A stretch of DNA of 20,814 nucleotides from a virus. The translations under genes were made by a program, and so were the position numbers. Below the pieces are notes generated by a model that worked only from the letters and a program-made list of their open reading frames with translations, was not told the DNA's origin and did no database searches. Every line of letters starts with the position of its first letter. The first letter of the stretch is position 1. Location: positions 1-20,814 of IMG/VR virus record IMGVR_UViG_3300044819_000136. The stretch is one strand, 5' to 3'. Below, one piece after another: positions 1,850 to 19,215 of the stretch.

Positions 1850-2485
1850 ATGTCCGGTACGCAAAACGTCGTCGGAGCGACGAATGATTCCGCTTGGGAC
1901 GGCTTATCGTCCGATGCCACCGAGATCGCGCTTCTGAAGAAGATCGCGCTCGGCCTCGCCCTCGCAGCCGGCGAGAACCATATCGGCCAGGTCGGCGGCC
2001 ATATCGCTGTCGCGTCGGCCAATTTCACCCGGCCCGCTGACACCAACGCCTATGCGGTCGGCGACCTCATCGCCAATTCCACGACGGCGGGATCGGTGGT
2101 GCCGCTTTCGCTCGCGGTCAGCCGCGCATCCGACAAGACCGGCATGGTGCGCCGCTTGCGGCTCAAGACCAACGACACCGCCTGGGCGAACGCCACGGTG
2201 CGCGTGCATCTGTTCAAGAACACGCCGACGCTAAGCGTGGGCGACAACGCCGTCTTCTCCGGCGGCACGACGGAGAGCGAATATCTGGGCTATGCCGACA
2301 TCACGCTCGACCGGCACTTCTCCGATGCGGAGAAAGGCACAGGCATCCCCGCCACCGGCAGCGAATGGAATTTCGAGCCCAGCGCGGGCACGCAGACCAT
2401 CTTCGCGCTGCTCGAAGCGCGCAGCGCCATCACGCCCGGCAGCGCCAAGGTGTGGACGCTCGCCGCCGAAACCCATCAGAATTGA
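1850..2485 (+). CDS. Hypothetical virion-type protein, 211 aa
   Basis: Not recognised with certainty. The sequence is rich in Ala, Thr, Ser, Gly and Asn, with a region around residues 45-85 (HIAVASANFTRP, then YAVGDLIANST) of the kind found in phage structural or decoration proteins. It has no transmembrane helix and no catalytic motif. The start ATG at 1850 follows a TGGAGA ribosome site. The frame stays open upstream to 1616, but that part is translated repeat, so I exclude it. It ends one base before the next gene (stop 2483-2485, ATG 2487), so the two are almost certainly co-translated. Genes of this kind are absent from this position in RcGTA, so the pair looks like an accessory cassette between terL and portal. 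A capsid decoration or adhesin partner is plausible but unproven. Confidence 0.7.
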   Translation: MSGTQNVVGATNDSAWDGLSSDATEIALLKKIALGLALAAGENHIGQVGGHIAVASANFTRPADTNAYAVGDLIANSTTAGSVVPLSLAVSRASDKTGMVRRLRLKTNDTAWANATVRVHLFKNTPTLSVGDNAVFSGGTTESEYLGYADITLDRHFSDAEKGTGIPATGSEWNFEPSAGTQTIFALLEARSAITPGSAKVWTLAAETHQN

Positions 2486-2486
2486 G

Positions 2487-3776
2487 ATGACGATGCTGCT
2501 TCCCCATCGCCGCGGGCTTCTCGCCGCGCCCCGCACCGCGCAATATTGGAGCGCGGGCGGGCGCACGGGCCTCAACGTTTCCCTGGATACCGGTCATTCC
2601 GGCGCGGTCTACAACGTCGGCACCAGACGGCTCGTGCGCAATAGCGGCGCGGCATTGACCAACCTCTTCGCGCGCTTCGCGAATTGGTATTGGGATGGAA
2701 GCACCGCGGGAGAACTGGCGACCGGCAACCCCATTCTCGTGCGCGCCTCCATCGAATACCCCATCGGCGGTGCGCTGTTCCAGATGACGCTGAACGGCGC
2801 GACCGATATGGTCATACAAAGCGGGCAGACGATCCAAACCGATAAAATCGCGGGCCTCACCATACCGGCGGGTGCCCTCTACTACGTCCACCAATTCATC
2901 TCGAACACGGTATCCGGCACGAGCTACAATTCGCTGCCGCAGGGCCGCGCCTATATCTATTACGATGGCAGCAATGGCGGGAACGAGAAATACGCGCGCG
3001 GGTCCACCGTCACCGATCAGACGGGAACGCTGGGCGGCCAATCCTCGACGCCCAGCACGGCGCCGGCCAATCTGTACCAGCCGCTCGTCATCGCCGGGAC
3101 GCCGGTCGTGAGCGGAACCTTGCCGCCCAGCTTCGCCATCTTCGGCGACAGCATCTCGTTCGGCTTCGACGAGGATCAGCAGCAGCGCGTCAGCGACAGT
3201 TATCGCAATGCCGGGCCTTGGGAGCGCTGGATCGGCGGCGTCGGTGGTTATGGCTACACCAATCTCAGCCGCTCCGGCGCAAAGGCGAGCGGCTATGCTG
3301 GGATCGCGGGTGGCACGTTTCCGCTGATCTGGAACGCGACGAAGGATTGTTTCAGCCACGCCATCGTGGCGCTCGGCCGCAACGACATCGGGACTTACAA
3401 TGCGGCGCAGATCCAGGCCAGCGTGGAGCGCTTGGTGGGGTTTCTCGTCCAGAACAAGAAGAGAGTGTGGGTTTCGACCATAACACCACTGTCCAGTTCG
3501 ACCGATGGCTATGTGACGACAACGAACCAGACGGCGGATGCCTCCACCGACCGCACCGCTTTCAACGCGGTCGTGCGCGCGAACGCTATCGCGCAGGCGT
3601 CGGGTTGTCTGGATCTCGCCGACCGTTTCGAAAGCGCGCGCGACAGCGGCAAGTGGCGCTGCGACGGCGCCGTGGCGTTCGCCAGCACCGTCACCGGCTC
3701 GGGCCTTCATCCCAAATCCATCGCCAATTCCACCGCGGCGTCGGAGTTCGCATCGCCATCCGGCGTGTTTGTTTAG
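2487..3776 (+). CDS. SGNH/GDSL-type hydrolase domain protein, possibly virion-borne
   Basis: A 429-aa protein. Residues 1-210 form a beta-rich, Gly/Thr/Asn-rich region with no recognised motif. The C-terminal half is an SGNH hydrolase fold: block I FAIFGDSIS (217-224, nucleophile Ser222), a block II-like Gly in NLSRSG (near 264), block III ALGRND (Asn299) and block V GLHP (His408). The usual Asp three residues before the catalytic His is Ser405 here, so the triad is incomplete at its standard position. Family members are esterases or acetyl-hydrolases acting on lipids, polysaccharides or cell-wall acetyl groups. In a phage cluster a surface-glycan deacetylase or spike role is an inference. 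The start at 2487 lies one base after the upstream stop. The gene is followed by a palindromic repeat, and the pair sits where GTA clusters normally run straight from terL to portal. Confidence 0.8.
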   Translation: MTMLLPHRRGLLAAPRTAQYWSAGGRTGLNVSLDTGHSGAVYNVGTRRLVRNSGAALTNLFARFANWYWDGSTAGELATGNPILVRASIEYPIGGALFQMTLNGATDMVIQSGQTIQTDKIAGLTIPAGALYYVHQFISNTVSGTSYNSLPQGRAYIYYDGSNGGNEKYARGSTVTDQTGTLGGQSSTPSTAPANLYQPLVIAGTPVVSGTLPPSFAIFGDSISFGFDEDQQQRVSDSYRNAGPWERWIGGVGGYGYTNLSRSGAKASGYAGIAGGTFPLIWNATKDCFSHAIVALGRNDIGTYNAAQIQASVERLVGFLVQNKKRVWVSTITPLSSSTDGYVTTTNQTADASTDRTAFNAVVRANAIAQASGCLDLADRFESARDSGKWRCDGAVAFASTVTGSGLHPKSIANSTAASEFASPSGVFV

Positions 3777-5323: not shown

Positions 5324-5689
5324 ATGACGGACAATATTCGGAAGCTGGTACCTGTGGCCGAACCTTGGACAGCCGCCCAGGCGACGGAGCGTCTCCGTCG
5401 GATAGCGCACGAGGACAGTTTCTCGTTAACGCTGACGTACCATGCCGAGGATCAAATGAAAGAGAGAGGCATCACCACGCTAGACGTCATGTACGTGCTG
5501 AAAAACGGTTTTGTCTACGACCCACCCGAAAAGGCGACACGGCCTGGATACTACAAATACGCAGTGGTCAATCCGACGCCGAATTCTGATCGTCGCGAAG
5601 TACGCGTGGTCGTAATTCCGTCCATTCAATCGGCGCAAGCTAAGATCGCGACGGTAATGTGGGCGGACGAACCGATGACTGGAGGATGA
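5324..5689 (+). CDS. DUF4258 protein, probable toxin of a type II toxin-antitoxin pair
   Basis: A 121-aa protein whose central and C-terminal part matches DUF4258: YHAEDQMKERGIT (residues 39-51), DVMYVLKNG, then YYKYAVVNP and EVRVVVIPS, ending KIATVMW. DUF4258 proteins are small, RelE-like in predicted fold and often sit beside a helix-turn-helix gene, so a toxin acting on translation is the working guess; no activity can be read directly. Toxin-first order resembles higBA and mqsRA. The ATG at 5324 has no ribosome site. A GTG at 5354 preceded by GGAAG is an alternative start that keeps the whole domain. Base composition is lower in GC than the phage genes around it, suggesting separate acquisition. 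It is translationally linked to the next gene. Confidence 0.75.
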   Translation: MTDNIRKLVPVAEPWTAAQATERLRRIAHEDSFSLTLTYHAEDQMKERGITTLDVMYVLKNGFVYDPPEKATRPGYYKYAVVNPTPNSDRREVRVVVIPSIQSAQAKIATVMWADEPMTGG

Positions 5690-5691
5690 AA

Positions 5692-6144
5692 ATGGAAAAA
5701 GAATATCGTTACACGGCGAGTGGGCTGGATAACGTCATCCTCGTGGGGCTGGACGAGTGCACGGATGATCACGGCGAAAAGTGCGTGACCATTCCTAACA
5801 TCAATAAGCTGCACGAGGCGATCGCCATGAGCGTGCTGAAGCGTCACGGTGGGATGACCGGCGCCGAGCTCAAGTTCCTGCGAACGATGATGGGCATGAC
5901 CCAGGCTGAGCTGGGTAAGATCGTCAATCGCGAAGCGCTGACAATCGGTCGCTGGGAGCGTGAGCAGTTCGAGAACGACCCGAATGCCGAAGCGATCATT
6001 CGCCTTGTCGCCGCCGAACGCTTGCAACTGGACCTGAAGGTACCCATTGAGGACGTAACGGGCTGGTGCTTCCAGACGGCAGATAATCCGGCAATTCGCA
6101 TCGACGCGAGTGACCCGGATAATTATCGGCCGATAGCGGCGTAA
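5692..6144 (+). CDS. XRE-family HTH regulator, probable antitoxin
   Basis: A 150-aa protein with an N-terminal YRYTASGLDNVILVG segment (residues 5-19), common in the antitoxin-like regulators paired with DUF4258 genes, and a central helix-turn-helix around residues 60-100 (ELKFLRTMMGMTQAELG, then LTIGRWE). It should neutralise the upstream product and repress the promoter at 5286 through the adjacent inverted repeat. The start at 5692 is chosen because GGAGG (5681-5685) lies six bases upstream. An ATG at 5686 would overlap the toxin stop as ATGA but leaves no spacing. The zinc-binding cysteines of MqsA are not seen, so it is not a typical MqsA. A strong terminator follows. The pair is a self-contained unit inserted between portal and the capsid maturation genes. 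Confidence 0.85.
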   Translation: MEKEYRYTASGLDNVILVGLDECTDDHGEKCVTIPNINKLHEAIAMSVLKRHGGMTGAELKFLRTMMGMTQAELGKIVNREALTIGRWEREQFENDPNAEAIIRLVAAERLQLDLKVPIEDVTGWCFQTADNPAIRIDASDPDNYRPIAA

Positions 6145-10405: not shown

Positions 10406-10822
10406 ATGACCGCACAACGCGGCAAGGACCTGCTTATCAAGATCGGCGACGGGGCAAGCCCGGAAGTCTTCACCACCGTCGCCGGACTTCGCGCCACCAC
10501 GCTCGCCTTCAACGCGACGAATGTGGACGTGACCAATTCGGACTCCACCGACATGTGGCGCGAACTGCTCGCGGGCGGCGGGGTCAAATCGGCCGCGATC
10601 TCCGGCTCCGGCGTCTTCAAGGACGCGGCGTCGGACACCGCGTTGCGCACGGCGTTCTTCAACCAGACGCTCTGCGATTGGCAGATCGTGATCCCGAGCT
10701 TCGGCACCGTCGCGGGACCGTTCAAAGTGACCTCGCTGCAATATGAGGGCCCCTATGACGGCGAGTTGAAGCTGTCGCTCTCGCTCGCGTCGGCGGGGGC
10801 GCTGACATTTACGCCGGCCTAA
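10406..10822 (+). CDS. Major tail protein, TP901-1 family
   Basis: A 138-aa tail tube subunit (TIGR02126, RcGTA gp9-like). The start AQRGKDLLIKIGDG (residues 3-16), the FTTVAGLRATTLAFN stretch (22-36), the TDMWRELLAGGGVKSAAISGSGVF-type core (48-71) and the C-terminal LSLASAGALTF are typical. The ATG at 10406 has an excellent AAAAGGAGAT ribosome site, consistent with a protein needed in many copies. The gene lies between palindromic repeats at 10285-10383 and 10823-10852, neither of which encroaches on the frame. Confidence 0.93.
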   Translation: MTAQRGKDLLIKIGDGASPEVFTTVAGLRATTLAFNATNVDVTNSDSTDMWRELLAGGGVKSAAISGSGVFKDAASDTALRTAFFNQTLCDWQIVIPSFGTVAGPFKVTSLQYEGPYDGELKLSLSLASAGALTFTPA

Positions 10823-10876: not shown

Positions 10877-11236
10877 ATGAACAAAATCCGCGGCGAAGCC
10901 GAACTCGTTGCCGGCGGGCGCAGCTATTGTTTGCTGCTGACGCTAGGCGCGCTCGCCGAGATCGAGGACGGGCTCGGCCTTGCCGATCTGTCGCAAGTTT
11001 CCGCGCGCTTCGCCCATGCGCGTGCCGGCGATCTCGCCATCGTGGCGGCCGCGCTGTTGCGCGGTGGCGGCCATGAGATGACACCGGCGGAGGTGCTCAG
11101 GCTTCCCTGCGATCTCGGTGCGCTGATCGCGGCAGTGACGGCCGCGTTCGAGGCGGCGGGGCTCTCGAATGCAAAGCCGGGCGTCGAGGAAAATCCCGTC
11201 CCTTTTCCTGGGACGCTTGGCTTGCGCTCGGATTAG
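10877..11236 (+). CDS. GTA-type tail assembly chaperone (zero-frame product)
   Basis: A 119-aa protein of the GTA tail-assembly chaperone family (RcGTA gp10-like). It holds the tape measure during tail tube assembly, like lambda gpG. Family features are KIRGEAELVAGGRSYCLLLTLGALAEIED-type N-terminus (residues 3-31), a central helical region with RAGDLAIVAAALLRGGGHEMT, and a helix ending LIAAVTAAFEAAGL. GAGGAA precedes the ATG at 10877. Near its 3' end, the slippery heptamer C CCT TTT lies in the correct frame. A -1 shift there would replace the final nine residues with 57 residues of the next frame to give a 167-aa product. The zero-frame end therefore probably represents the short form of a G/GT-type pair. 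Confidence 0.88.
   Translation: MNKIRGEAELVAGGRSYCLLLTLGALAEIEDGLGLADLSQVSARFAHARAGDLAIVAAALLRGGGHEMTPAEVLRLPCDLGALIAAVTAAFEAAGLSNAKPGVEENPVPFPGTLGLRSD
11200..11206 (+). promoter_or_regulatory. Predicted -1 ribosomal frameshift site (CCCTTTT)
   Basis: In the chaperone frame the codons read GTC CCT TTT, giving the canonical X XXY YYZ heptamer C CCT TTT. After slipping, decoding continues TCC TGG GAC GCT TGG, giving ...VPFSWDAWLALGLG and running to TGA at 11377-11379. That extension is recognisable as the conserved start of the next chaperone family, which has no start codon of its own upstream in this frame. A weak downstream stem (GACGC 11212-11216 with GCGTC 11244-11248) is possible. Confidence 0.7.
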
Positions 11237-11241
11237 GCGCG

Positions 11242-11379
11242 ATGCGTCTGTCTCCCGCCACGTTCTGGAGCATGTCGCTTGTCGAATGGCGCGCAACGCT
11301 TCGCGGACGCGTGCCCCGACGCGCGGCACCGCTCGCGCGCGCCGATCTCGAACGTCTGATGCAAACCTATCCGGATTGA
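11242..11379 (+). CDS. Second tail assembly chaperone domain (TIGR02216/PF09550-like), -1 frame
   Basis: From the ATG at 11242 the frame encodes 45 aa: MRLSPATFWSMSLVEW, then ATLRGR and the C-terminal LERLMQTYPD. This matches the small GTA/prophage chaperone (RcGTA rcc01693-like) that follows gp10. The family's conserved N-terminal motif (FxWxAxxxLGLG) lies upstream of this ATG, is open in the same frame from 11206, and lacks an ATG, GTG or TTG start. The complete product is thus most likely a frameshift fusion with the upstream gene, residues 1-110 plus 57 more. The ATG at 11242 has no good ribosome site and may be unused. The stop lies three bases before the tape-measure ATG, so translation of the two is probably coupled. 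Confidence 0.75.
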   Translation: MRLSPATFWSMSLVEWRATLRGRVPRRAAPLARADLERLMQTYPD

Positions 11380-11382
11380 ACC

Positions 11383-11937
11383 ATGGCAAATGATACGACA
11401 CCTTCTCTCGGCGACGCGTTGAGCGCGAGCTTCGCCACCGCCGCGCAAGCGCTCGGCGATTTCGCCAACGGCCCGGTGGCGAGCGCGACCAAGACCATCG
11501 ACGACGCGGTGACGCGCAGCTTCGATTCCGTGTCGTCGACGATCGCGCGCGCGGCGCTGAGCGGCAAGACTTCCATCGACCAGCTCGTCAATGCCGTGCT
11601 CGCCGATTTCGACCGCATCGCGACCAGCCAGTTCATCGTCAAACCCATCGAGGGGGTGGTGAGTTCGCTGATCTCCTCGCTGCTGCCGATCTCCGGCGCG
11701 CGGGCGAGCGGCGGTCCGGTCGGCGCCGGCGGCAGCTATCTGGTGGGCGAGCAGGGGCCGGAATTGTTCACGCCGTCCGCCGACGGCGCGATCACCTCCA
11801 ACGCGAACCTCGCCCAGGCGCGGCCATCCGTCGTGCTGAACGTGCAGACGCAGGACGCGTCGAGCTTCCTCAAATCGCAAACCCAGATCGCCGCGATGAT
11901 GTCGCGCGCGCTGGCGCGCGGACAACGGAACCTCTGA
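11383..11937 (+). CDS. Short tail tape-measure protein (GTA gp11-like)
   Basis: A 184-aa protein whose C-terminal half has the hallmark GGPVGAGGSYLVGEQGPELF (residues 108-127) of phage tape-measure C-termini. An amphipathic, Ala/Ser/Thr-rich helical N-terminus runs from SLGDALSASFATAAQALGDF onward. A hydrophobic segment near residues 92-103 (GVVSSLISSLLP) may insert in the membrane during DNA delivery. Tape-measure proteins of siphophages are usually far longer; GTA versions are about this size (RcGTA gp11 is about 220 aa), predicting a short tail tube. It starts three bases after the chaperone stop with a weak ribosome site and ends one base before the next gene. Confidence 0.88.
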   Translation: MANDTTPSLGDALSASFATAAQALGDFANGPVASATKTIDDAVTRSFDSVSSTIARAALSGKTSIDQLVNAVLADFDRIATSQFIVKPIEGVVSSLISSLLPISGARASGGPVGAGGSYLVGEQGPELFTPSADGAITSNANLAQARPSVVLNVQTQDASSFLKSQTQIAAMMSRALARGQRNL

Positions 11938-14127: not shown

Positions 14128-14214
14128 CGTGAAGATGGACGATTCATCTCCCTTCGCCGATGCGTGTGTGATAGGCTCGATGACGGGCAGGACTTGCAAA
14201 AAAGGTCGGGGGAA

Positions 14215-15183
14215 ATGAGCGGGATATTCGCGACGAAGGTGGTCTTTGCGGCCACCCTGGCGGCTGCGGCGTTTTGCGCGGGTGCGGCAAACGCCGCGGA
14301 TTCGGACAAGTCCGGCGATCCATCGAAACTGTGCCTCGACACCCAAGGCCATGTCGACCTCGCGAAATTCATCGCGGCCTGCACGGCGGTGATCGACTCG
14401 AATTCTTACGGAGCGTTGGAACATGCCGCCGCCTATGCCAATCGCGCGTCGAGCTATGTGACGCTTGGCTTGTACGACCGCGCGGTGGACGATTGCGAGA
14501 AGTCCAGGTCTTTGGATTCCGGTTCCGGGGACGCCGCCCAGGTCTATATCTGCGGGAATGCCTATCGGGGGCAGAAGGATTGGACCCACGCCATCGAGGA
14601 ATACAACCGGGCGATCGAGCTGTGGCCCTATTTCACCGATGCGTTCATCGCTCGCGGTCAAGCTTATGAGAAATTGGGCGACCATGACCGCGCGATGGAC
14701 AATTACACGGACGCGGTAAATCTTCCCGCCCATACCGCTGGGGAATTTCGAGCACGGGCGCGGGCGCATGTGCTTCTAAACGAATATTCCAAGGCGGTCG
14801 CCGATTACGACAATGTCGTGCGCCTTCAGCCGGACGATCCATCCGCCCTGGGCTGCGCGTGCTGGTATCGCGCGCAGCTCAACCTGCAGCTCGACGTCGC
14901 GATGAGGAACTGCAACACAGCCATAGAGCGCGATTCAAGTGACAGCTTCGCCATGGATTCGCGCGCCCTCGTGTTTCTGCGCATCGACGCCTGGGCCAAT
15001 GTGATCGCCGATACGAACGACGCGTTGGCGATCAATCCGAAAAAGCCAACGTCCCTCTACATGCGCGGCATCGCGAAGCTGCGCACCGGCGACACAGCCG
15101 GCGGCAATGCCGACATCGCCGCCGCCACGGCCATTGATCCGAAGATTGCCGAGACTTTCGCGGGATATGGCGTGAAGCCTTAG
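14215..15183 (+). CDS. Exported tetratricopeptide-repeat protein
   Basis: A 322-aa protein with a clear Sec signal peptide (basic Lys8, hydrophobic core VVFAATLAAAAFCAG, cleavage after Ala-Asn-Ala at residue 27), so it should be periplasmic. Residues about 70-310 contain roughly seven TPR-like helical pairs, for example AAAYANRASSYVTLGLYDRA (71-90), WTHAIEEYNRAIELWP (123-138) and DAFIARGQAYEKLGDHDRA (142-160). TPR proteins are protein-protein scaffolds; no enzyme domain is present. The start at 14215 is chosen for the signal peptide and the GGGGGAA just before it. A GTG at 14164 would bury the signal. This gene is not part of the standard GTA order and lies between the peptidase and the megaprotein, followed by its own terminator, so it looks like inserted cargo. 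No convincing promoter was found in 14128-14214. Confidence 0.85.
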   Translation: MSGIFATKVVFAATLAAAAFCAGAANAADSDKSGDPSKLCLDTQGHVDLAKFIAACTAVIDSNSYGALEHAAAYANRASSYVTLGLYDRAVDDCEKSRSLDSGSGDAAQVYICGNAYRGQKDWTHAIEEYNRAIELWPYFTDAFIARGQAYEKLGDHDRAMDNYTDAVNLPAHTAGEFRARARAHVLLNEYSKAVADYDNVVRLQPDDPSALGCACWYRAQLNLQLDVAMRNCNTAIERDSSDSFAMDSRALVFLRIDAWANVIADTNDALAINPKKPTSLYMRGIAKLRTGDTAGGNADIAAATAIDPKIAETFAGYGVKP

Positions 15184-15255: not shown

Positions 15256-18200
15256 ATGGCCTCTCTGGTTCTTGGAATAGCCGGTTCGGCGCTGGGCCCG
15301 ACCTTGTTCGGCAGCGGCTTCTCGTTCCTGGGCGCGACGATCACGGGCGCGCAGATCGGCGGCGCTATCGGTGCCTTCGCGGGCGCCGAGATCGATGCCG
15401 CGATCGCGCCGGGCACGAAGCGCACCGGCCCGCGCCTCTCGGACGTGAACGTGCAAGCCTCGACCGAGGGCGCGCCGATCCCGCGCCTTTACGGCCGCAT
15501 GCGCGTGGCGGGGCAGTTGCTCTGGGCGTCGAAATTCAAGGAGACGACCTCCACCACCAGCACGGGCGGCAAGGGCTTGCCCACGCCGAAGGTGACAGAG
15601 ACCGATTATCTCTATGCGATCTCCTTCGCGGTGGGATTGTGCGCGGGAGCGGCCACCAAGATCGGGCGCGTCTGGGCGGACGGCACGCTGATAGACCTCT
15701 CGCAATATACGACCCGCTTCTATCCGGGCGGCGAGGCGCAGTCCTTCGATCCGCTGATCGAGGAGATCGAGGGAACCGGCAACACGCCCGCCTATCGCGG
15801 GCTCTGCTACATCGTGTTCGAGGACATGCCGCTCGCCGCGTTCGGCAACCGCATCCCGCAATTGCAGTTCGAGATCATCCGCTCCATCGCGCCGGACAAT
15901 CCCACCGCGCTCGAAAACAAGCCGTCCGGCGTGGCGCTGATCCCGGGTGCTGGAGAGTTCGTCTATGCGACGGACATCGTCACCGACGATGACGGCGCGG
16001 GAACGACTGAGGCGCTGAACGCGCATAACGCGTCGGCCACCGCCGATATCGACGCGTCGTTGGACGAGCTGACCGCGCTCGCGCCCAATCTCGGTGCCGT
16101 GTCGCTGGTGGTGGGCTGGTTCGCGAGCGACCTTCGCTGTGCGTCATGCGAGATCAGGCCCGGCGTCGAGACGGCAACGAAAACGACCTATCCCGACACT
16201 TGGAGCGTCGACGGCATCGCGCGCGCCGATGCCTATGTGGTGAGCGAAGTGGACGGACGCCCCGCCTATGGCGGCACGCCGTCGGACGACAGCGTCGTCG
16301 CCGCCATCGCGGATCTGAAAGCGCGCGGTCTTCGCGTGGTCTTCTATCCGTTCCTGTTCATGGATATCGCGAGCGGCAATACGCTCACCGATCCTTATAC
16401 CGGCGCGAGCGGGCAGGGCGTCTATCCCTGGCGCGGACGCATCACCTGCGCTCCGGCGCCGGGCGTGTCCGGCTCGCCCGACAAGACGAGCGCGGCAGCG
16501 ACGCAGGTGAGCGCATTCTTCGGCAGCGCCGTGTCCACCGACTTCGCGGTCGACGGCATAACGGTCGCCTGGACCGGCGGTGCGGACTACGGATTTCGCC
16601 GCATGGTGCTGCATTACGCGAAACTTTGCGCGGCGGCCGGCGGCGTGGACGCATTCCTGATCGGTTCGGAGCTGCGCGGGCTGACGCATGTGCGCTCCGA
16701 CGCGACGACATATCCGGCCGTGGCGGCGCTGAAGACGCTCGCCGCCGATGTGCGCGCGATCCTGGGCGGCGGAACCAAGATCGGCTATGCGGCGGACTGG
16801 TCGGAATACAACAATCATCAGACCGGCGATGCCGCGGGCGCCGTGCTGTTCAACCTCGATCCCTTGTGGTCGGACTCGAACATCGATTTCGTCGGCATCG
16901 ACAATTACATGCCGCTTGCCGATTGGCGCGATGGCACGACGCATCTCGACTACGATCCGGCAAACGGCCCCACGACCATCGACGATCCCGCTTATCTCTC
17001 GCGCAACATCAAGGGCGGCGAGGATTACGACTGGTATTATGCGAGCCCGTCGGACCGCGACGCGCAGACGCGCACACCGATCACCGACGGCCTGGGCAAG
17101 CCCTGGGTGTGGCGCGCAAAGGATCTTTGGAATTGGTGGTCGAACGCGCATTACGATCGTCCTTCGGGAAGCGAAAGCGGTTCGCCCACGGCGTGGACAC
17201 CGCAAGGAAAACCGATCTGGTTTACGGAGCTGGGTTGTGCGGCGCTCGACAAAGGCGCCAACCAGCCCAATGTCTTCTTCGATCCCAAGTCTTCGGAAAG
17301 CGCGCTCCCCTATTATTCCAACGGCGAGCGCGACGATCTGATCCAGCGCCGCTTCCTGGAAGCGCATCTGAATTTTTGGAGCGTGTCCGCCAACAATCCG
17401 ACCTCGTCCGTCTACTCGGCGCCGATGGTCGACACCGCGAATATTCTCGTGTGGTGCTGGGACGCGCGGCCGTTTCCGTTCTTCCCGGCGCGCGCCGATG
17501 TGTGGGGCGACACGGCGAATTATCAGTTCGGCCATTGGCTGAACGGACGGCTGGGCGCCGTGCAATTGGCGGATCTCGTCACCGCGCTCTGCGCCGATGC
17601 GGATTTTGCGGATATCGACGTGTCCTCACTTTCGGGTCTGGTCACCGGTTTCGCGGTGACCGACACGATGAGCCCGCGCGATGCCATCGCCCCGCTTGGC
17701 GTCGCCTATCAATTCGACGGCGTGGAGAGTGAGGGTGTCATCCGCTTCGTCGCTCGCGGGCGGCCGAGCGCCACATCTTATGACGAAGGCGATCTGGTGC
17801 TGCCGGACGGCGATGCGTCGTTCGGCTTCTCCCTCGACCGCGCGCAGGAGACCGATCTGCCCGTCGCTTCGCGCATTTCCTATATCGACGCCGACGCGGA
17901 TTACCGCCAGGCCGTCGCCGAAGCGCGCAGGCTTGTCGGCGGTTCGGATCGCGTCGCGAGTTCGAGCCTGCCGCTCGTGCTCGACCAAGGCCAGGCCATC
18001 GGCATCGGCGCAAGGTTGCTGCAGGACGCTTGGGTGATGCGCGAAAGCGCGAGTTTCGCGCTGGCGCCATCCACGCTGGCCCTCGATCCGACCGACGAGG
18101 TTCTACTCGACGTGGGCGGGCGCGTCCGCCGTCTACGCTTGACGGGAATCGACGACGCCGCCTCGCGTCAGATGCAAGCGGTCGCGACCGATCCTTCGAT

Positions 18201-19215
18201 CTACGAGGCCATCACCGGGCCGTCGCGTGCGCCGGGCGCCGCGCAGAGTTCGGTCAGCACGGGCCGCGCGCTGGTGGCGTTCCTCGATCTGCCGCTGCTG
18301 ACGGGAAGCGAAATTCCCTGGGCGCCGCGCGCGGCTGCTTTCGCCGATCCCTGGCCGGGATCGGTGCTGGTGCTGCGCAGCGCCAGCGACGCGAATTATG
18401 CGCTCGATACGTCGCTCACCCGTGCGGCGATCATCGGGGTGACCACTGCCGATTTTTCCACCGGCCCCATCTGGCGCTGGGACGAGGCGAGCGCGCTCGC
18501 GGTCAAGCTCACCAGCGGCACGCTGTCCTCGCTCGACGATCTCTCCGTGCTCGGCGGCGCGAACGCCGTTGCGATCCAGAACGCGGATGGCGGCTGGGAG
18601 ATCGTGCAATTCGCCACCGCGACTCTGACCGCGCCCAACCAATGGACGCTGACACGGCTGCTGCGCGGCCAGGCCGGAACCGAAGGCGCGATGCGAAGCC
18701 CGGTCGCGTCCGGCGCGCGCGTTGTCTTCCTCGACGGCGCACTCAAACAGCTTTCGCTCAGCCAGAGCGAGGCGGTATTGCCGTTCCATTATCTCTGGGG
18801 GCCGCAGGGAAAAGCGATCTCCGATCCCTCCTATCAGGGTGCAACGCTGCAATTCCAGGCCGTCGGGCTGCGCCCCTATGCGCCGTGCCAATTGCGCGCG
18901 GTGTATGACGGCAGCGGCGATATCGTTCTCGGCTGGATACGCCGCGACCGGGCGCCCTCGAGCGATTCCTGGGACCAGACCGAAATTCCGCTGAGCGAAT
19001 CCGCGGAAGCTTACGACGTCGAAATCCTCGATGGTTCGGGAAATGTCGCGCGCACATTCTCGTCGCTCGGCGCCGCGACCGCGACATATACCGCTGCCGA
19101 GATCGCGGCAGATTTCCCAAGCGGACTTCCCTCACCGTTCCGCTTCACGGTCTATCAGCTTTCCACCGTCCTCGGCAGAGGGCCGGGGAAAGTAAGAGGC
19201 TTCGTCTTCGCCTAA
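15256..19215 (+). CDS. GTA TIM-barrel baseplate megaprotein (host-specificity type)
   Basis: A 1319-aa protein matching RcGTA gp15 in length and layout; it forms the central baseplate hub and receptor-side tip. Residues 1-50 are Gly/Ala-rich and hydrophobic. Residues about 60-215 are an N-terminal tail domain with GAPIPRLYGRMRVAGQLLW. A TIM-barrel region follows (roughly 280-735) with VVGWFASDLRCASCEIRPG, GSELRG (Glu472), DNYMPLADWRD and IWFTELGC (Glu658). A phage tail-3-like domain (about 790-950) and a C-terminal region ending VLGRGPGKVRGFVFA complete it. Glu472 and Glu658 sit where glycoside hydrolases of this fold carry acid/base and nucleophile, so glycan cleavage is possible but unproven. 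The start ATG at 15256 has a weak ribosome site and follows a terminator by 15 bases. Confidence 0.95.
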   Translation: MASLVLGIAGSALGPTLFGSGFSFLGATITGAQIGGAIGAFAGAEIDAAIAPGTKRTGPRLSDVNVQASTEGAPIPRLYGRMRVAGQLLWASKFKETTSTTSTGGKGLPTPKVTETDYLYAISFAVGLCAGAATKIGRVWADGTLIDLSQYTTRFYPGGEAQSFDPLIEEIEGTGNTPAYRGLCYIVFEDMPLAAFGNRIPQLQFEIIRSIAPDNPTALENKPSGVALIPGAGEFVYATDIVTDDDGAGTTEALNAHNASATADIDASLDELTALAPNLGAVSLVVGWFASDLRCASCEIRPGVETATKTTYPDTWSVDGIARADAYVVSEVDGRPAYGGTPSDDSVVAAIADLKARGLRVVFYPFLFMDIASGNTLTDPYTGASGQGVYPWRGRITCAPAPGVSGSPDKTSAAATQVSAFFGSAVSTDFAVDGITVAWTGGADYGFRRMVLHYAKLCAAAGGVDAFLIGSELRGLTHVRSDATTYPAVAALKTLAADVRAILGGGTKIGYAADWSEYNNHQTGDAAGAVLFNLDPLWSDSNIDFVGIDNYMPLADWRDGTTHLDYDPANGPTTIDDPAYLSRNIKGGEDYDWYYASPSDRDAQTRTPITDGLGKPWVWRAKDLWNWWSNAHYDRPSGSESGSPTAWTPQGKPIWFTELGCAALDKGANQPNVFFDPKSSESALPYYSNGERDDLIQRRFLEAHLNFWSVSANNPTSSVYSAPMVDTANILVWCWDARPFPFFPARADVWGDTANYQFGHWLNGRLGAVQLADLVTALCADADFADIDVSSLSGLVTGFAVTDTMSPRDAIAPLGVAYQFDGVESEGVIRFVARGRPSATSYDEGDLVLPDGDASFGFSLDRAQETDLPVASRISYIDADADYRQAVAEARRLVGGSDRVASSSLPLVLDQGQAIGIGARLLQDAWVMRESASFALAPSTLALDPTDEVLLDVGGRVRRLRLTGIDDAASRQMQAVATDPSIYEAITGPSRAPGAAQSSVSTGRALVAFLDLPLLTGSEIPWAPRAAAFADPWPGSVLVLRSASDANYALDTSLTRAAIIGVTTADFSTGPIWRWDEASALAVKLTSGTLSSLDDLSVLGGANAVAIQNADGGWEIVQFATATLTAPNQWTLTRLLRGQAGTEGAMRSPVASGARVVFLDGALKQLSLSQSEAVLPFHYLWGPQGKAISDPSYQGATLQFQAVGLRPYAPCQLRAVYDGSGDIVLGWIRRDRAPSSDSWDQTEIPLSESAEAYDVEILDGSGNVARTFSSLGAATATYTAAEIAADFPSGLPSPFRFTVYQLSTVLGRGPGKVRGFVFA

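Follow-up and report, generated by a model that had tools for sequence, protein, structure and literature searches.

A probable programmed −1 ribosomal frameshift between the two tail assembly chaperones of alphaproteobacterial gene transfer agents

In a gene transfer agent (GTA)-like cluster and in many of its relatives, the junction between the two tail assembly chaperones is very probably a programmed −1 ribosomal frameshift that would yield a fusion of tail assembly chaperone 1 (TAC1) with chaperone 2 (TAC2). Frameshifted tail chaperones are established in phages (PMC5009743, PMC3556154, PMC4882933), and those of lambda (gpG/gpGT) and other tailed phages were described by Xu, Hendrix and Duda (2004), as summarised in PMC5009743. 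For GTA chaperones, a full-text search of non-subscription papers found no report of frameshifting, in line with the original prediction, in which none was known. Frameshifting went unmentioned in papers on the structure of RcGTA, on GTA taxonomy and on the Caulobacter GTA, and a paper on RcGTA homologues handles the two tail chaperones as distinct genes (PMC11409702). Strong comparative evidence from sequence suggests that what is new here is a phage frameshift device widespread in GTAs, which carries an unusual upstream element and has repeatedly given way to a separate gene.

The gene cluster and the chaperone junction

The analysed DNA is the IMG/VR record IMGVR_UViG_3300044819_000136 (20,814 bases; hereafter, the window). 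Its genes follow the order terminase, portal, prohead protease (S78), capsid, connector, head completion, tail completion (gp8-type), tail tube, two chaperones, short tape measure, DUF2460, hub protein, NlpC peptidase and multidomain baseplate protein. The baseplate protein (15256–19215) scored 1753 bits against the NCBIfam model NF048004 (GTA_megatron; cut-off 800), and the order around the chaperones is PF06199, PF11836, PF09550 and tape measure. Judged by its head–tail gene order and baseplate protein, the window is an RcGTA-like gene transfer agent cluster. The matches of TAC2 to TIGR02216 (43.9 bits, cut-off 56.1) and of the tape measure to NF058675, the RcGTA tape measure model (53.5 bits, cut-off 220), were significant but under the curated thresholds, implying that the cluster belongs to a divergent, non-RcGTA lineage. 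Also observed were a likely toxin–antitoxin pair between portal and protease (5324–6144), consisting of a DUF4258 protein followed by an MqsA-family/HTH-type antitoxin-like protein, and two ORFs inserted within the head–tail cluster (2466–3776 and 14164–15183), one GDSL/SGNH hydrolase-like and the other with TPR repeats.

The features around the junction are as follows.

10406..10822, + strand: major tail protein (gp9, PF06199), upstream of the chaperones
10877..11236, + strand: TAC1, tail assembly chaperone 1 (GTA gp10, PF11836), zero frame, 119 aa, ATG to TAG
11186..11189, + strand: GAGG, Shine–Dalgarno-like candidate stimulator, with a 10-nt spacer to the heptamer
11200..11206, + strand: slippery heptamer C CCT TTT (−1 frame, CCC TTT), identified from the sequence and its conservation in relatives
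11206..11379, + strand: TAC2 (GTA gp10.1, PF09550/TIGR02216), −1 frame, 57 aa after Pro-Phe, with the stop TGA at 11377–11379
11234..11236, + strand: TAG stop of unshifted TAC1, read from the sequence
11242..11244, + strand: first ATG in the TAC2 frame, after the PFSWDAWLALGLGA segment and 5 nt past the TAG
11383..11937, + strand: short tape measure protein (gp11, 184 aa), downstream of the chaperones

The frames, the heptamer and the missing start are read directly from the DNA, and here the original prediction was borne out. Zero-frame codons at the slip site are GTC|CCT|TTT|CCT, placing X XXY YYZ in the correct phase, with 27 nt between the heptamer and the TAC1 stop codon. Following a TGA at 11077–11079, the −1 frame stays open from 11080 to the TGA at 11377–11379; before the ATG at 11242, it holds neither ATG, GTG nor TTG, so that the second chaperone lies in the −1 frame with no start of its own, as had been claimed. 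The predicted fusion has the anticipated length of 167 aa, made up of the TAC1 codons to 11206 (110 aa) and of 11206–11376 (57 aa).

Both proteins belong to chaperone families. TAC1 matched PF11836 with 47.3 bits (cut-off 27.8) and TAC2 matched PF09550 with 55.9 bits (cut-off 23.4), the latter match beginning exactly at the slip-site Phe. The AlphaFold model of TAC1 (pLDDT 83) is predicted to have the tail assembly chaperone fold; its best match to predicted viral tail assembly chaperones had an E value of 4e-5 and a TM score of 0.68. Among solved structures, TAC1 had no match by sequence or by fold, and the TAC2 sequence gave one weak match, to a chain named HeliScrew4.

All 52 aligned TAC2 sequences, of frameshift and start types alike, share the Trp just after the slip site, indicating that the segment supplied only by frameshifting is conserved. 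This residue precedes any possible start in the window, and the claim that the family motif can be reached only through a frameshift is supported. Re-initiation, in which ribosomes stop at the TAG at 11234 and restart at the ATG at 11242, would produce a TAC2 of about 45 aa. The window ATG lies only 5 nt past the TAG, some start occurs within 25 nt of the TAC1 stop in 55/79 relatives, and GenBank records of phage relatives annotate TAC2 in this way. However, a start at ATG 11242 would be too late: both the FSWDAWLALGLGA segment and the Trp would be lost, even though this Trp is also kept in homologues that have a proper start upstream of it. Moreover, 11 of the 79 relatives have no start codon in the first 25 TAC2 codons, so the ATG at 11242 is not conserved, and re-initiation leaves the heptamer, the exclusive −1 relation and the Shine–Dalgarno (SD)-like element before the heptamer unexplained. 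We therefore regard re-initiation as very unlikely, and a frameshift remains by far the better account of the junction.

Comparative survey of junctions

Relatives were collected as 78 IMG/VR loci, found via the neighbouring DUF2460 protein, and 80 loci from GTDB contigs, with further loci from PF09550 searches of whole alphaproteobacterial genomes followed by region extraction. Removal of identical junctions left 243 unique junctions (IMG/VR and GTDB). A TAC2 was called start-less when there was no ATG, GTG or TTG within 15 codons upstream of its N-terminus. TAC1 read through past the N-terminus of a start-less TAC2 at 100 loci, and TAC2 was in the −1 frame in all 100; this counts for a frameshift, given that a random mix would place TAC2 in the +1 frame as often. 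At 32 more start-less −1 loci, the TAC1 stop fell just before TAC2, giving 132 in total.

Heptamers were counted as XXXYYYZ with Y = A/T within the overlap of the two frames. They occurred in phase in 111 of the 132 start-less −1 loci, compared with four and two in the other two phases, whereas the 83 start-bearing −1 loci had six in phase and one in each of the other phases. The junction alignment across alphaproteobacterial GTAs suggested in the original prediction, which looked for the heptamer together with missing starts, was thus strongly positive (111/132 vs. 6/83). As start loci mostly lack the heptamer and start-less loci mostly have it, the start-type lineages act as a mirror-image control. 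Judged by these phase-controlled counts, the conservation of the heptamer is far above chance.

In 88 of 103 −1 read-through junctions, CCCTTT coincided exactly with the Pro-Phe codons while TAC1 ran on, compared with about 10 of 103 expected from the codon usage of the same genes (joint CCC TTT frequency 0.095). The enrichment rests on these unconditional counts; a codon-usage p-value computed on 79 loci selected for CCCTTT was circular and was discarded. The CCCTTT bases were invariant (31/31) in an alignment of the closest relatives of the window, which were themselves drawn from CCCTTT-selected loci.

The commonest site was C CCT TTN at the Pro-Phe codons, where N can be any of the four bases; a systematic survey lists every C_CC.U_UU.N motif as frameshift-prone in Escherichia coli (PMC4066793). 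Other in-phase sites were CCCTTTG located 18–39 nt further upstream, GGGAAAG (in many cases immediately 5′ of the TAC1 stop), GGGAAAC and AAAAAAC, and an upstream in-phase CCCTTTN, GGGAAAG, GGGAAAC or AAAAAAC covers most of the remaining start-less loci. The putative slip site shifts in position and type between lineages, a point that extends the original prediction. One locus (L184) carried GGGAAAG three times in phase, at −60, −48 and −24 before an FDW-type TAC2. There were 21 start-less loci (of 132) lacking an in-phase Y = A/T heptamer, some of which may be pseudogenes, users of AAACCCT or genes with a more distant start. The motif AAACCCT (Y = C), which was left out of the main heptamer statistics, recurs in phase in the start-less loci L101, L181, L299, L305, L320 and L328 and could serve as an additional slip site.

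Transcriptional slippage at the C/T run, resulting in mixed mRNAs, would also produce a fusion without a start codon. Nevertheless, the runs comprise only three C and three or four T, and known transcriptional slippage runs are longer than this. In addition, tRNA re-pairing suits both the presence of an SD-like element and a Z base that can be T, C, G or A, and the alternative sites GGGAAAG and GGGAAAC contain no long homopolymer. This explanation has next to no probability in our assessment, and slippage of the ribosome is again favoured.

The upstream Shine–Dalgarno-like element and the proposed mechanism

Pairing with the anti-SD sequence was analysed in 79 non-redundant loci with CCCTTT at Pro-Phe. 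The strongest pairing clustered about 6–19 nt 5′ of the heptamer, and the core spacers were mostly 7–16 nt (10 nt in the window). The best duplex averaged −8.4 kcal/mol, compared with −3.4 kcal/mol elsewhere in TAC1, and a duplex of ≤ −6 kcal/mol was found in 78% of loci against a background of 15% (p = 8e-32); because the loci share ancestry, p-values that assume independence, such as this one, are overstated. Part of the enrichment could also be compositional, since the Gly/Glu-rich linker adds G-rich codons. A stronger point than enrichment is that the element tracks the moving slip site. Among 26 loci with a slip site displaced by 18–69 nt relative to the TAC2 N-terminus, 73% have the SD-like element ahead of the slip site, and 27% have one ahead of the TAC2 N-terminus (background 15%). 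An element that moves with the slip site looks like a dnaX-like stimulator and not like an initiation site for TAC2. The upstream element, which these comparisons add to the earlier reading, thus appears to be part of the signal.

The same data bear on internal initiation, in which GAGG would serve as the ribosome site for a non-canonical start near Pro-Phe. GAGG does lie 10 nt 5′ of the motif, and SD-like elements are common at this position. Nevertheless, the near-cognate codons ATT, ATC, ATA and CTG are absent within eight codons in 73/79 relatives, and the SD-like element goes with slip sites 18–69 nt upstream and not with Pro-Phe. Internal initiation also gives no reason to expect a heptamer. 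It is accordingly highly improbable.

Under the frameshift reading, we infer the slippage, its efficiency and the roles of the two products from sequence as follows. During translation of TAC1, the anti-SD sequence of the 30S subunit would pair with GAGG (11186–11189). The two tRNAs, on CCT in the P site and on TTT in the A site, could then re-pair one base back on CCC TTT (11200–11205). A minority of ribosomes would go on in the −1 frame and produce the 167-aa TAC1–TAC2 fusion, and the remaining ribosomes would stop at 11234, releasing the 119-aa TAC1. If the two products act as lambda gpG and gpGT do, the tape measure protein would be coated by the plentiful short form, and the scarce fusion would bring in the major tail protein.

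The junction resembles that of lambda in that two overlapping chaperone frames lie between the major tail protein and the tape measure, with a −1 shift at X XXY YYZ shortly before the first frame ends; the lambda site itself, GGGAAAG, occurs in some GTA relatives. It differs from lambda in that it belongs to GTA clusters of bacterial genomes, involves the families PF11836 and PF09550, and usually has its heptamer (C CCT TTN) exactly on the first TAC2 motif, accompanied by the upstream SD-like element. Signals of the dnaX/IS911 type employ an upstream Shine–Dalgarno stimulator for −1 frameshifting (PMC4066793). The GTA loci share with E. coli dnaX and IS911-type signals an SD-like element about 10 nt 5′ of an in-phase heptamer, where dnaX-type signals are expected to have one at about 10–14 nt, but they have C CCT TTN in place of A AAA AAG, and no conserved downstream stem-loop was detected in them. 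A search for a conserved downstream stem in the relatives with RNAalifold gave a consensus of only two pairs, and downstream folding was shifted weakly relative to shuffled sequence (mean z −0.4 to −0.7). The switch of codon phase at the heptamer was not crisp, and the overlap appears to be constrained in both frames.

Start-type lineages, history and significance

RcGTA g10 and g10.1 (Rcc01692 and Rcc01693, Rhodobacter capsulatus) and their counterparts in other Rhodobacterales are homologous chaperones in the same cluster position, but Rhodobacterales TAC2 has its own ATG or GTG at the TAC1 stop, whereas the TAC2 of the window is start-less. All 32 tree loci of the Rhodobacterales clade were of the start type: their TAC2 begins with an ATG or GTG that abuts or overlaps the stop of TAC1, and they lack an in-phase heptamer. 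Part of Hyphomicrobiales shows the same arrangement. Homologues with a proper ATG and no heptamer, which the original prediction had named as contrary evidence, are present, but only in these two groups; the start-less lineages mostly keep the heptamer, and for them the prediction is supported. In four start-type Hyphomicrobiales loci (L200, L206, L210 and L213), CCC TTT CCC is kept at Pro-Phe-Pro after the TAC1 stop, resembling former slip sites.

A tree of 186 non-redundant TAC1 and TAC2 sequences, from which the junction columns were left out, implied at least 18 changes between the frameshift and start states; the tree is unrooted with modest internal supports, and this number does not separate gains from losses. 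The clade with the kind found in the window comprised 36 loci (support 100), all of the frameshift type. An even sample of Alphaproteobacteria yielded 29 usable loci, of which 11 were of the frameshift type, 14 of the start type and four undecided.

In GenBank phage relatives, GGGAAAC or AAACCCT adjoins the TAC1 stop and TAC2 lies in the −1 frame, but the annotated TAC2 is truncated. In MW091529 (L331), MW462191 (L332), OP947159 (L333) and MW202777 (L334), the annotated TAC2 ATG lies downstream of the conserved Trp. Given the in-phase AAACCCT or GGGAAAC at the TAC1 stop, these four are probably mis-annotated frameshifts, and the junctions of the phage relatives would suit an ancestral frameshift. 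In the broader scenario, an SD-stimulated −1 frameshift would be ancestral in alphaproteobacterial GTAs and would have been selected in host-owned genes while its slip site was repeatedly turned over; the RcGTA lineage and several others would have independently swapped to a second chaperone gene with its own start, so that the chaperone ratio no longer depended on the ribosome. The evidence leaves us evenly divided for and against this history.

Because GTA structural genes are owned by the host, the persistence of a recoding signal in many genera, in the form of several site types, is evidence that intact tail assembly is still selected. The presence or loss of the signal could mark functional GTAs, and g10.1 is probably mis-annotated, as truncated or missing, in many genomes. 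Frameshifting and non-frameshifting relatives together provide a natural set for testing why phages frameshift at their tail chaperones.
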